A DNA stretch of 64,000 nucleotides, from positions 310,001 through 374,000 of the forward strand of contig QFXC01000013.1 of assembly GCA_003349885.1 (NCBI GenBank), written 5' to 3'. The DNA comes from an endosymbiont of Galathealinum brachiosum. GTDB taxonomy: Bacteria; Pseudomonadota; Gammaproteobacteria; SZUA-229. Shown piece by piece: positions 8,461 to 45,040 of the stretch. The notes beneath the pieces were generated by a model. That model was not told the origin of the DNA and ran no database searches. It saw only the letters and a list, made by a program, of their open reading frames with translations. The position numbers were made by a program, and so were the translations under genes. The stretch's first letter is position 1. Every line of letters begins with the position of its first letter.

Positions 8461-8487
8461 CATCGTTTCATGACTTGTATCAATAGT

Positions 8488-25943: not shown

Positions 25944-27155
25944 TTAACCGGGACGACCATCAGCCCGTTCTGTAACCAGCATAGGTGCATAAAAATACAT
26001 ATATATAGTAAATGCTAACACCCATAACACACCCGCTATACCAATTGCCCAGAGAGTTAACTCAGGCAGCCATGCGGGAATTGTTACACGCACAATTGTT
26101 GCGAATAAAATAAATAAATAAGCCGTAGTTATTAAACGCGGTGGATTTAGCTGACGCCCCGTATGACCTAATGTCACTCTTGATATCATTGCCAATATCA
26201 TTCCACCAATGGCTCCCACCGTAATACTGTGTAAAGCAGTACTAATATTACCCATTAAGCCCAGACTATAAAGTGCCAGCAGACCAAACCCCAGGGGTAT
26301 GAATATATACGCCATATGTAATGACCATAATAAAGGCTCCGATTTACAGTGCTGAAATCCCCACCGGGAAAAACGCCAGCCATTTGCCAGTGCAGCTATA
26401 ACTGACGTTATCAGTAAAAACATCGGTGGCACACTATCAAAACCAGTGAATGCGATAATCAGTAATAGAATAATGCTCAGAATGCTTATTATTTCCAGCC
26501 CTTTGATCGGTGGTTTTTTAATACAACGCGTTGTATTAGCTGTAAACGCGGGTATGACCCGGCCACCTAATATAGTAATAATTAAAGAGAATAGAATAAT
26601 AGTCCCGTGTAATGCATGAATAGCGACATCCGGTTGATTATAGATAACCGCCCAATGACCACTGGCATTCAGTAAACTTAAAACAAATAATATGGGTACA
26701 AACATCAAATTGCGCCACTGCTTTACTTTTATGACCGGATAAGCCATTGCGAGGGTCGCGAGTAATAGAAAACTAACGTCACCCAGCGCTATCGCCCAAT
26801 CGGCTATACCATAAGACGAACCAAATGCCAGAAGCAAGCGCCCCAGCAACCAGCTTAAAGCTAATACGGCAAGTGGTTTACCTCTTACACCAATGACACC
26901 CGTCCATGACTGCACTGCTGTTAATAAAAACCCGACAACGATAGCCGAGCCAAAACCAAACAACATTTCATGCCCATGCCACCAGACGGGGCCTCCATGC
27001 GGCATCCAGGTGGAAGGGCTTACCCAGAAGTAAGTCCACCATCCAATAGCGATAATAGAGAACAGGACGCCACCCAGAAAAAGCGGTCTAAAAGCCAGGC
27101 GTAATAAGGGAGGAATAGCTAATGCAATACGGCTGTCATCAATATTTAAGGGCAT
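25944..27155 (-). CDS. nnrS: NnrS family heme/copper membrane protein
   Basis: 403-residue polytopic inner-membrane protein with about 12 hydrophobic segments and many membrane His residues. Family landmarks include RLAFRPLFLGGVLFS, WHGHEMLFGFGSA (about 64-76), GGRVIPAFTAN and a late GGMILAMISRVTLGHTGR. NnrS binds heme and copper and protects metabolism against nitric oxide stress in denitrifiers and pathogens. No nitrate, nitrite or NO reductase genes are in the window. It lies 107 bases downstream of the EF-hand gene on the same strand and may belong to the hydrogenase-subunit transcript. Confidence 0.92.
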   Translation of the reverse strand: MPLNIDDSRIALAIPPLLRLAFRPLFLGGVLFSIIAIGWWTYFWVSPSTWMPHGGPVWWHGHEMLFGFGSAIVVGFLLTAVQSWTGVIGVRGKPLAVLALSWLLGRLLLAFGSSYGIADWAIALGDVSFLLLATLAMAYPVIKVKQWRNLMFVPILFVLSLLNASGHWAVIYNQPDVAIHALHGTIILFSLIITILGGRVIPAFTANTTRCIKKPPIKGLEIISILSIILLLIIAFTGFDSVPPMFLLITSVIAALANGWRFSRWGFQHCKSEPLLWSLHMAYIFIPLGFGLLALYSLGLMGNISTALHSITVGAIGGMILAMISRVTLGHTGRQLNPPRLITTAYLFILFATIVRVTIPAWLPELTLWAIGIAGVLWVLAFTIYMYFYAPMLVTERADGRPG

Positions 27156-27261: not shown

Positions 27262-27651
27262 TTACTTCTGCCCTCCCCTATAACGATAGCGTCTGTGCTT
27301 TTGAAGACGCAGATTTAAGGCACTAATCATTTCATCTTCATTTATGAATCCATCCTTATCACTATCAACTTCTTCAAATCTTAATAGAGGTAATGACTGC
27401 TTTTTTTTTCCTCTTGCAAGTTTTACTTTATCCTCAATATGCTTCTCAAAATAATAATACTCATCCCTACTTAACAATCCATTTTTATCAACATCATAAA
27501 TAGAAAAAGCACGCTCACCCCGTTTCATTTTTTTTGTTGATACAGGGTCATTGTTTTTAGCTAATACTTGCTGTTCAACTTTATGTACAGAGCAGGATAT
27601 TAATGAAATTATTGATATAATCATTAAGCATTGATAAAAATGAATATTCAT
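27262..27651 (-). CDS. EF-hand calcium-binding lipoprotein
   Basis: 129-residue exported protein. The signal peptide ends in a lipobox (LISC, Cys20), so it is probably lipid-anchored facing the periplasm. Two canonical EF-hand loops are present: 53-64 (DVDKNGLLSRDE) and 96-107 (DSDKDGFINEDE), both with acidic ligands at positions 1, 3 and 12 and Gly at 6. The C-terminus is Arg/Tyr-rich. It starts 11 bases after the stop of the hydrogenase small subunit-cytochrome gene, so the two are almost certainly cotranslated. Calcium binding is well supported; the partner and purpose are unknown. Confidence 0.82.
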   Translation of the reverse strand: MNIHFYQCLMIISIISLISCSVHKVEQQVLAKNNDPVSTKKMKRGERAFSIYDVDKNGLLSRDEYYYFEKHIEDKVKLARGKKKQSLPLLRFEEVDSDKDGFINEDEMISALNLRLQKHRRYRYRGGQK

Positions 27652-27662
27652 ACTTACCCCTG

Positions 27663-28871
27663 TTACTTTGTTGACTTTAAATACGCTTCCAGAATTTTAA
27701 TCTGATCGTTAGAAAATTCGAGTCGTCGATGTGCTCGAATGCTGTTGTCACGAAGTAATTTAGAAATATTTTCAGCATCAACTTCAAACTCAGAAGCATT
27801 AGTAGAGTGACAATAAACACAATTATCCTGATAAAGATTACGACCTTCTTCTACTGCACTATCAGTTGTTTCATTCACAGGTTTAAAAGCAAATGCAATA
27901 TCATCCATACTTTGATATAAACCGCCCCTGTCCCAGAAATCAGGTTCAGAACAACCTATACAGGGATGGCCTGACTCAACAGGAAAACTGGTTCCCTTAT
28001 TCCATTTATGAACTGCACAGGCATTATGAGTAACCGGACCTTTACATCCTAGCTTATACAAACACCAGCCTTTACGCGCACCTTCATCATCAAAACTTTC
28101 AGCGAATTTCTCTTCTTTATAAAAATGATATCGGGAGCAACGCTCATGCACTGTATTACCGTAAAAATTAACAGGGCGTTTCAACTCATCCAGAGCAGGA
28201 AATTTATCAAAAGCAAGATAGTGAGCCAGCACACCACTAATTGCGACAGGAAGTGGTGGGCAACCGGGAATATTAACTAAGTATTTTTCTGCAATAAGTT
28301 TCATATCCATCAGACTCGCTACACTTGTCGCACCTGTCGGGTTTGGCTCCGCCGCGGGTAAACCTCCAAAAGCAGCGCAACTTCCAACAGCAATTACAGC
28401 AGCAGCCCCTGCGCTACATTCTTTTAAAATATCCAGATTCGTTCTACCGGCAATGGTTGAGTAGACACCACCATTAGCAATGGGAATCGATCCATCAACT
28501 ATCAATAAATATTTTCCATATGAATGATTCATTGTGTCTATTCGGGCCTGTTCAGCTGCCTCACCCGAAGCGGCCTGCAAGGTATGGTGATAATCAAGCG
28601 AAATGTAGTCAAACATCAATTCTTCGATGGTGGGTGCATGTGAGCGAGTAAGTGACTCGGTACAACCCGTACATTCCTGAAAAGAAAGCCAGATAACGGA
28701 TGGACGAACAGCATGACGCAGTTTTTCAGATAAGGCGGGAATTGCGCTAGCAGGCAGTGCGAGTAATGAAGCCATTGCAGCACAATATTTCAGGAACGAC
28801 CGGCGACTTACTCCCTGTTGAGAGAGATAACTTTCAAAACTGACTGACTTAGACATTGTATCTATTTTCAT
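27663..28871 (-). CDS. [NiFe]-hydrogenase small subunit fused to a C-terminal cytochrome c domain
   Basis: 402-residue Tat-exported iron-sulfur protein. The Tat motif RRSFLK is at 23-28. All ligands for the three clusters of a standard small subunit are visible: proximal C67, C70 (ECTGCTES), C165 (GSCAAFGG) and C204 (IPGCPP); distal H242, C245, C270, C276; medial C285, C304, C307 (GHPCIGCSEPDFWD). The extra cysteines of oxygen-tolerant enzymes are absent. The usual C-terminal membrane helix is replaced by a c-type domain with CVYCH at 351-355; no Met follows it, and H381 may be the second ligand. No large subunit or maturation gene is in the window. It is followed at 11 bases by an EF-hand lipoprotein gene. 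Confidence 0.9.
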   Translation of the reverse strand: MKIDTMSKSVSFESYLSQQGVSRRSFLKYCAAMASLLALPASAIPALSEKLRHAVRPSVIWLSFQECTGCTESLTRSHAPTIEELMFDYISLDYHHTLQAASGEAAEQARIDTMNHSYGKYLLIVDGSIPIANGGVYSTIAGRTNLDILKECSAGAAAVIAVGSCAAFGGLPAAEPNPTGATSVASLMDMKLIAEKYLVNIPGCPPLPVAISGVLAHYLAFDKFPALDELKRPVNFYGNTVHERCSRYHFYKEEKFAESFDDEGARKGWCLYKLGCKGPVTHNACAVHKWNKGTSFPVESGHPCIGCSEPDFWDRGGLYQSMDDIAFAFKPVNETTDSAVEEGRNLYQDNCVYCHSTNASEFEVDAENISKLLRDNSIRAHRRLEFSNDQIKILEAYLKSTK

Positions 28872-29057
28872 AGGTCACAACTAATATTCAGTAATTTGAC
28901 GTGTTAAACAGAAAGCGCATAGACAGATAATGGCTCTACCTGTTTACCTATACACGCTCATTTTATAATATGCATTGTTATTCAACTAAACATATAACAA
29001 TAATTTTTAATAAATATGACATGAATCAATCAGCATTTTCTAAACCATAAACCAATG

Positions 29058-32810: not shown

Positions 32811-33425
32811 ATGACGTATTTAAATAAAATTAATTTTATGAACGCCGGATTTCGTAACAACGTGTTCCGGTTATTTTTACTTTTTTTTATTTTTACTCTG
32901 GCATTACCAAATGCAAATTCGACACAAGTCGTTGACCCGGAACTTCGCAAGCGCCTTATTTCTGCTATCAACCAGTCTAGTAGCTTCGAAGACCGATTTC
33001 ATGCCGAAGTCTGGTTACTTGATATGTCGACACGATTAAAAATTCGCATTGAAGACTCAAAAACCCGTTTAAAACTACTTCGCAGCATACACCGTGAAGC
33101 CAGCCGTGTTGCTTTACCACCTGAATTAATTATTGCTTTAATCGACATTGAAAGCCGCTTCGACCACTTTGCTATCTCCCGGTCCGGTGCTCAGGGCCTG
33201 ATGCAGGTTATGCCTTTCTGGTTAAAAGAAATTGGTCACCCACAAGACAACCTGATGGACATAGATACCAATTTACGCATGGGATGCACTATTCTTAAGT
33301 ATTATATGGATATAGAAAAAGGAAATATTCGTCGTGCCCTGGCCCGATATAATGGTAGCCTTGGCTCATGGGTTTACCCGGACAAAGTGATGACTGTGTT
33401 AACTAAACACTGGTATAGAAGTTAA
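32811..33425 (+). CDS. Lytic transglycosylase (SLT domain)
   Basis: 204-residue exported murein hydrolase that cleaves the MurNAc-GlcNAc bond with 1,6-anhydro product. Signal segment about 17-37 (SLT enzymes act in the periplasm). The catalytic Glu is E114 in IALIDIESRFDHFAIS, followed by SGAQGLMQVMPFW and the ARYNGS motif near 189. It follows proS by 35 bases and its TAA overlaps the ATG of the Crp/Fnr gene by one base (TAATG), so the two are coupled. Precise subclass (MltC/Slt70-like) is not assigned. Confidence 0.88.
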   Translation: MTYLNKINFMNAGFRNNVFRLFLLFFIFTLALPNANSTQVVDPELRKRLISAINQSSSFEDRFHAEVWLLDMSTRLKIRIEDSKTRLKLLRSIHREASRVALPPELIIALIDIESRFDHFAISRSGAQGLMQVMPFWLKEIGHPQDNLMDIDTNLRMGCTILKYYMDIEKGNIRRALARYNGSLGSWVYPDKVMTVLTKHWYRS

Positions 33426-34072
33426 TGACTGATATTGATATTTCACTTGAAGAATTACTTCAACAAAAAGAGTTTGAGTATATAAATAGTCAATCTCAAA
33501 AAGTTACCGTACCTGCAAATAGCACGGTTTTTCGTCAGGGAGATTCGTGTAAAAATTACTTACTGGTTTTAGATGGCTCAGTTAAAGTATTTAGTCGTGC
33601 AGAGAATGGTCGTGAAATTATTTTATATCGTGTAAAAAAAGGTGAATCGTGCACGTTAACCACCGCCTGTTTATTCGCAAGCAACCCGTATCCTGCAGAA
33701 GGCGTAACTGAAACTGATTCCACTGCACTGATGATTCCTCTGCCCGTTTTTAATAAAGCTCTGGCTGAGTCTGATAAATTCAGAAAAATAATTTTTGATC
33801 AATATGCTCAGCGGCTCAGTGACGTCATTAATCTGGTTGAAAACTTAAGCTTTGGCCATATAGATATTCGCCTTGCACGTTTATTATTAAATTTAAGCAC
33901 CAATTCAGAGACCATTGAAACAACCCATCAGACACTGGCGACTGAGTTAGGTAGTGCTCGGGAAGTGATTAGCAGACAGCTAAAAGAGTTTGAACGCAAA
34001 GACATAATTTCTCTTCAGCGAGGAAGTATAAGAATAACCAATAAGAGTGACTTACAGAAAATAGCTGAATAG
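33425..34072 (+). CDS. Crp/Fnr family transcriptional regulator
   Basis: 215-residue regulator with an N-terminal cyclic-nucleotide-binding-type beta-roll (about 25-140, FRQGDSCKNYLLVLDGSVKVF) and a C-terminal winged helix (about 150-212) whose recognition helix reads LATELGSAREVISRQLKEF. The N-terminal Cys cluster of Fnr is absent; the two cysteines in the roll (C77 and C82, near SCTLTTACLF) could sense redox or metals. It is more like FlpA-type regulators than true Crp. It overlaps the transglycosylase by one base. Two CRP-like palindromes in the window (37751-37769 and 43551-43566) are possible targets but this is only conjecture. Confidence 0.85.
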   Translation: MTDIDISLEELLQQKEFEYINSQSQKVTVPANSTVFRQGDSCKNYLLVLDGSVKVFSRAENGREIILYRVKKGESCTLTTACLFASNPYPAEGVTETDSTALMIPLPVFNKALAESDKFRKIIFDQYAQRLSDVINLVENLSFGHIDIRLARLLLNLSTNSETIETTHQTLATELGSAREVISRQLKEFERKDIISLQRGSIRITNKSDLQKIAE

Positions 34073-44617: not shown

Positions 44618-45001
44618 ATGAATAATATAAAACTTACACGATTATGCACACTGGTTGGCTATTTTGGTTTACTGGTTTTCATTCCTGCCTGGCACTTACT
44701 GGTAGTACCTTTAAAGCCTGAATATATGTCAGTTACCTTGCTTGTGCAGGTAGGTCCTCTTATGTTTCCACTAAAAGGAATCCTGCATGGCAGGGTATAT
44801 ACCCATGCATGGGCGATGTACCTGGCATTATTTTATTTTATCTTAGGCGTCTGGTATGCAGGTGATGAAAGCACCCGCACTTTTGGCGTTATTTTTAGCC
44901 TGCTCAGTATCATGTTTTTTATTGGCTCCATGCTCTATACACGATTTCAGGGTATGGCAGAAAATGCCGCTGCTGCAGAGCGGACTGATACTGAAAATTG
45001 A
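44618..45001 (+). CDS. DUF2069 integral membrane protein
   Basis: 127-residue inner-membrane protein with four hydrophobic segments (about 10-32, 38-55, 66-84, 90-110) and the DUF2069 hallmark PLKGILHGRVYTHAWAMYLALFYF split over the central loop. Function unknown. The position after arsC-wrbA is conserved in Pseudomonas-like genomes. A short Ala/Glu-rich cytosolic tail ends the chain. A hairpin follows. Confidence 0.85.
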   Translation: MNNIKLTRLCTLVGYFGLLVFIPAWHLLVVPLKPEYMSVTLLVQVGPLMFPLKGILHGRVYTHAWAMYLALFYFILGVWYAGDESTRTFGVIFSLLSIMFFIGSMLYTRFQGMAENAAAAERTDTEN

Positions 45002-45040
45002 TCTAGATCATCTTCAAAATCCAACAACACGTTAGTCTAT

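Follow-up and report, generated by a model that had tools for sequence, protein, structure and literature searches.

In group 1 uptake hydrogenases, such as Hya and Hyb of E. coli and Hyn of Desulfovibrio, electrons leaving the distal Fe-S cluster pass to a haem protein or another partner (cytochrome b or c3), which is a separate subunit or protein and not a domain fused to an orphan small subunit. The distal cluster is the electron exit of the small subunit, and the proximal-cluster motif and the N-terminal domain face the large subunit in solved enzymes. In group 1e, the genes of the small and large subunits are separated by isp1 and isp2, a layout stated for Thiocapsa (PMC10892978). An electron carrier has been joined to a small subunit by design: Alteromonas macleodii HynS, truncated at its C terminus, fused to a ferredoxin and mutated in the surface patch at the distal cluster, was still active (PMC4307346). 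A search of open-access full texts, the coverage of which is incomplete, turned up no account of a naturally occurring small subunit-cytochrome c fusion that lacks a large subunit, and we claim no priority.

The window, the whole 64,000-nucleotide stretch analyzed here, contains such a fusion on the minus strand (27663-28871), a 402-amino acid orphan paralogue of the group-1e-type [NiFe] small subunit with a C-terminal mono-haem c domain. Matches to Oxidored_q6 (E 1e-27) and NiFe_hyd_SSU_C (E 6e-31) in Pfam and to TIGR00391 hydA (E 2e-118) all lie inside residues 15-322, and the nearest solved chain is 3myr_A (E 7e-123), annotated as 'Hydrogenase (NiFe) small subunit HydA', from Allochromatium vinosum. 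AlphaFold2, run with three sequences, returned an uninformative pLDDT of 33. The Tat motif SRRSFLK (residues 22-28, 28788-28808, minus strand), conserved in orthologues, precedes the small-subunit core (residues 55-321, 27909-28709, minus strand) with its 11 Fe-S ligands, assigned by homology to the proximal (C67, C70, C165 and C204), medial (C285, C304 and C307) and distal (H242, C245, C270 and C276) clusters. These 11 residues are unchanged across all nine fusion orthologues described below and 40 of 40 canonical group 1e proteins. A stretch by the distal cluster, VHERCSRYHFYKEE (residues 241-254, 28110-28151, minus strand), is remodelled.

Past residue 321, the protein continues with a linker and a 60-residue domain bearing the haem-binding motif CVYCH (C351-V-Y-C354-H355, 27807-27821, minus strand); the haem c domain as a feature covers residues 341-402 (27666-27851, minus strand). 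The hydrophobic C-terminal anchor of canonical proteins is replaced by a linker and a CxxCH domain in all nine fusions, with the CxxCH residues present in each. The domain scores 25.3 bits against PF00034 (cut-off 21.3), in a match that spans only 25 residues. Like class I-type c domains (PF00034/PF13442), the tail has a GxxLYxxxCxxCH start and a C-terminal YL helix, but it differs in having no conserved Met and an invariant His at the likely place of the sixth ligand. Because the alignment of the nine haem domains holds no conserved Met that could serve as sixth ligand, whereas His381 (27729-27731, minus strand) is invariant in 9/9, the haem is likely to be bis-His, with His381 as the candidate second axial ligand. 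The Ccm system is present in the fusion genomes, as indicated by ccmF in all nine.

Directly downstream, the window encodes an exported EF-hand protein of 129 amino acids (27262-27651, minus strand) with a lipobox, LISC, the start codon of which lies 11 bases past the fusion stop codon. It matches PF13499 (E 4e-11), and an alignment of eight such proteins shows paired loops with acidic ligands. The gene upstream of the fusion belongs to Lnb_N (formerly DUF4105), and none of the genes next to the fusion in the window encodes a large subunit, a cytochrome b or a protease. The preliminary description had read the locus in this way, with a Tat signal, three Fe-S ligand sets and a CVYCH mono-haem domain in place of the anchor, between a DUF4105 gene and an EF-hand lipoprotein gene and with none of the expected hydrogenase genes adjacent. 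The open reading frame is exactly as it stated, the domain matches agree on both neighbours (the EF-hand protein with a lipobox-like LISC), and the orphan status is borne out. Its premise that a small subunit is normally followed at once by the large subunit needs correction, since in group 1e isp1 and isp2 stand between the two.

Orthologues of the copy in the window's genome (G000) were searched for in relatives and in a class-wide sample of 369 genomes. Those found in G001, G009, G419 (JADGDG010000006), G206, G410, G137, G260 and G178 are 56-78% identical across almost the full length and together with the window's copy make nine, from at least five gammaproteobacterial GTDB families; seven of the nine genomes fall within the class sample. 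A phylum sample of 398 genomes contained canonical relatives, the only fusion being the window's own. A search of viral contigs for the fusion gave no match, and the best plasmid matches end at residue 322 and are canonical small subunits. In a tree built on core columns with the haem part excluded, for which only two outgroup rows were usable, the nine fusions form a single clade (support 100/99) within an unresolved backbone of 40 canonical group 1e sequences; the G178 sequence (L062) sits on a long branch, which makes its position uncertain in detail. Since the fusions form one clade among 1e small subunits, a single origin is most likely, in which a group 1e hynS would have been duplicated and its C-terminal anchor swapped for a mono-haem c domain. 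With the HynS/HydS proteins of Thiocapsa, Allochromatium and Alteromonas, among which it branches, the fusion shares the Tat signal and the ligand set, and the window copy is 63-67% identical to the canonical HynS of fusion-bearing genomes over residues ~12-323. It differs from them in carrying haem c instead of the hydrophobic anchor, in being unlinked to isp1-isp2-hynL and in its changed surface by the distal cluster.

The surroundings of the fusion vary. Beyond the window's genus, neighbourhoods are unlike that of the window, and those of G137 and G260, which belong to one genus, resemble each other. A secreted EF-hand gene nevertheless follows the fusion directly in eight of the nine genomes, and the conserved unit is therefore one of two genes, the fusion and the EF-hand gene, which may be co-transcribed; this pairing was not visible from the window alone and so lay beyond the preliminary description. 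The EF-hand gene of G001 (L040, 9203-9541) is split between two frames by a frameshift or a sequencing error, while the fusion upstream of it is intact. We rejected Lnb/DUF4105 and NnrS as further members of the unit, as they flank the fusion only in G000 and its congener G001. The NnrS family membrane protein is encoded after the EF-hand gene in the window (25944-27155, minus strand) and after the broken EF-hand gene in G001; G206 has an NnrS-like reading frame (L064, 14418-15632) about 4.6 kb from its fusion. No large subunit gene adjoins the fusion in any of the nine genomes, so the orphan arrangement seen in the window holds in its relatives too, and none of the nine has isp1, isp2 or hynL beside the fusion, the operon sitting elsewhere in each.

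The preliminary description had suggested a genome-wide search for a large subunit and hyp genes. Both are found in G000 on contig C8, the fusion itself being on contig C13: hypF-hypD-hypB-hypA-hypC is divergent from hyaD-hupH-hynS-isp1-isp2-hynL, and the canonical HynS encoded there is 65% identical to the fusion protein. All nine fusion genomes have hyaD-hupH-hynS-isp1-isp2, with hynL as the next gene in eight; in G260, a 4.2-kb contig stops inside isp2, before any hynL. Group 1e-like HynS, as read from search matches, occurs in about 42 of the 369 class genomes, and these include all seven fusion genomes of that sample (hypergeometric 1.5e-7; about 2e-5 at five families). Most 1e genomes have no fusion, and the fusion is therefore an optional addition to the 1e system. 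In G000, G009, G178 and G410, no full-length large subunit of group-1 type was found besides the 1e HynL, and no other partner is therefore shared by the whole set. G000 has a second hydrogenase, group 3b-like and encoded on contig C2, which was rejected as the main candidate, being not of group 1 and having its own adjacent small subunit. HydB-, HydG- and HydD-like genes precede the gene of its large subunit (L009, 10886-12673, plus strand), which continues in frame into a maturation protease domain of the HycI type (PF00374 + PF01750), so that this enzyme would bring its own processing protease.

Core dN/dS values across fusion pairs range from 0.036 to 0.126, ratios that are rough because dS is saturated for some pairs, and point to purifying selection on the fusion. 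Between G000 and G001, core dN is 0.099 for the fusion vs 0.034 for canonical HynS, an approximately three-fold difference, and because the fusion evolves faster than its canonical relative, some constraint on it has been relaxed. The 40 canonical proteins share 112 invariant core columns, 82 of which are also invariant and identical in the fusions; over all 112, the canonical residue is kept in 90% of fusion cells. The columns altered in most fusions are unevenly distributed, 1 of 59 in residues 55-209 vs 8 of 53 in residues 210-321 (p 0.013), and five of the nine lie within residues 238-256, around H242 and C245 of the distal cluster (Fisher p 6e-4, a descriptive value, as the stretch was picked after the changes were seen). 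Judged from the alignment, this pattern fits an altered electron exit combined with a retained large-subunit side. The engineered A. macleodii protein (PMC4307346) likewise combines a C-terminal truncation with an attached electron carrier and changes in the distal-cluster patch; it is, however, man-made, carries a ferredoxin rather than haem c and was co-expressed with its own hynL.

The window has a putative FNR/ANR/DNR-like site, TTGATTCATGTCAT (29016-29029, minus strand), some 150 bases upstream of the fusion. Five of the nine fusions, from genomes several of which are related, have a palindromic site of this kind, TTGATNNNNRTCA, at a distance of 109-164 bases upstream, and none of 2000 dinucleotide shuffles matched that count; among canonical operons, two of eight have such a site upstream, a number reached by 2 of 2000 shuffles. 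The sites hint at control of the fusion by low oxygen or nitrogen oxides, and together the NnrS neighbours and the FNR/DNR-like site hint at a link to nitrogen oxides. Two more FNR-like sites occur in the window (8470-8483, minus strand; 44998-45011, plus strand), making three found vs 1.4 expected by chance. A CRP/FNR-family regulator gene (33425-34072, plus strand) about 4.5 kb from the fusion encodes a possible regulator of the site at 29016-29029.

The reading we favor, and hold to be moderately probable, is that the fusion is an interchangeable second small subunit which pairs in trans with HynL and passes electrons through haem c, not through Isp1/Isp2, to periplasmic acceptors. We base it on the co-occurrence with the 1e operon, the invariant Fe-S ligands, CxxCH and His381, the signs of purifying selection, the changes at the distal cluster and the presence of ccmF in 9/9 genomes. 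Of the options in the preliminary description, the best fit is a subunit that shares a large subunit encoded at a distance. According to this model, Fe-S clusters would be inserted into the fusion in the cytoplasm, where it would bind mature HynL from the distant hynS-isp1-isp2-hynL operon; the heterodimer would then be taken to the periplasm by the fusion's own Tat signal, and haem c would be attached to the tail by Ccm. Electrons from H2 would run from the NiFe site over the proximal, medial and distal clusters to haem c and on to a periplasmic acceptor, bypassing Isp1/Isp2, or alternatively enter in reverse through haem c. The adjacent secreted EF-hand protein may serve as an assembly, docking or anchoring partner. 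The co-occurrence itself could also stem from ancestry and shared ecology, the fusion being the descendant of a 1e paralogue.

The main rival, possible but rather unlikely in our view, dispenses with the large subunit: the protein would act alone as a periplasmic wire of three clusters and a haem, such as one linking other redox proteins of the periplasm, or with the EF-hand protein as a sensor of redox state, NO or O2. It would explain why a large subunit is never linked to the fusion in nine genomes, why the gene has its own promoter region and an EF-hand partner, and why its rate is relaxed relative to canonical HynS; it sits poorly with the strict co-occurrence with the 1e operon and with the proximal-cluster motif and N-terminal domain being the best-kept parts of the protein. 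A [NiFe] small subunit turned into a free-standing periplasmic Fe-S/haem carrier or sensor, kept as a gene pair with an EF-hand protein, is about as improbable, and would be the more surprising outcome if true. We consider it doubtful that the role is one of regulation or assembly, in which the fusion would compete with HynS for HynL, or hold and export HynL, and use its haem for redox control rather than catalytic flow. The FNR-like site at 5/9 fusions vs 2/8 canonical operons suggests condition-specific expression, and the EF-hand partner is no obvious electron carrier, both in keeping with such a role; yet the whole electron-transfer chain and the haem ligands are invariant in 9/9, which goes beyond the needs of a decoy. 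A decaying duplicate, to which the broken EF-hand partner in G001 and the rate above canonical HynS might point, or an assembly artefact is highly improbable given nine independent assemblies from at least five families, invariant ligands and dN/dS of 0.036-0.126, and we reject for practical purposes both the artefact, a possibility the preliminary description had raised, and its electron-wire remnant.

If pairing of the fusion with HynL is correct, these bacteria would possess a modular [NiFe] hydrogenase, with one catalytic subunit and two small subunits that can replace each other, one leading to the Isp membrane module and the other to haem c, so that a single active site could be wired to different acceptors depending on conditions. 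How maturation is ordered in a protein that is exported by Tat and ends in a haem c domain is a further, testable question. The fusion would be a natural analogue of the engineered fusions of hydrogenases with electron carriers, and as such may be useful for bioelectrochemistry.
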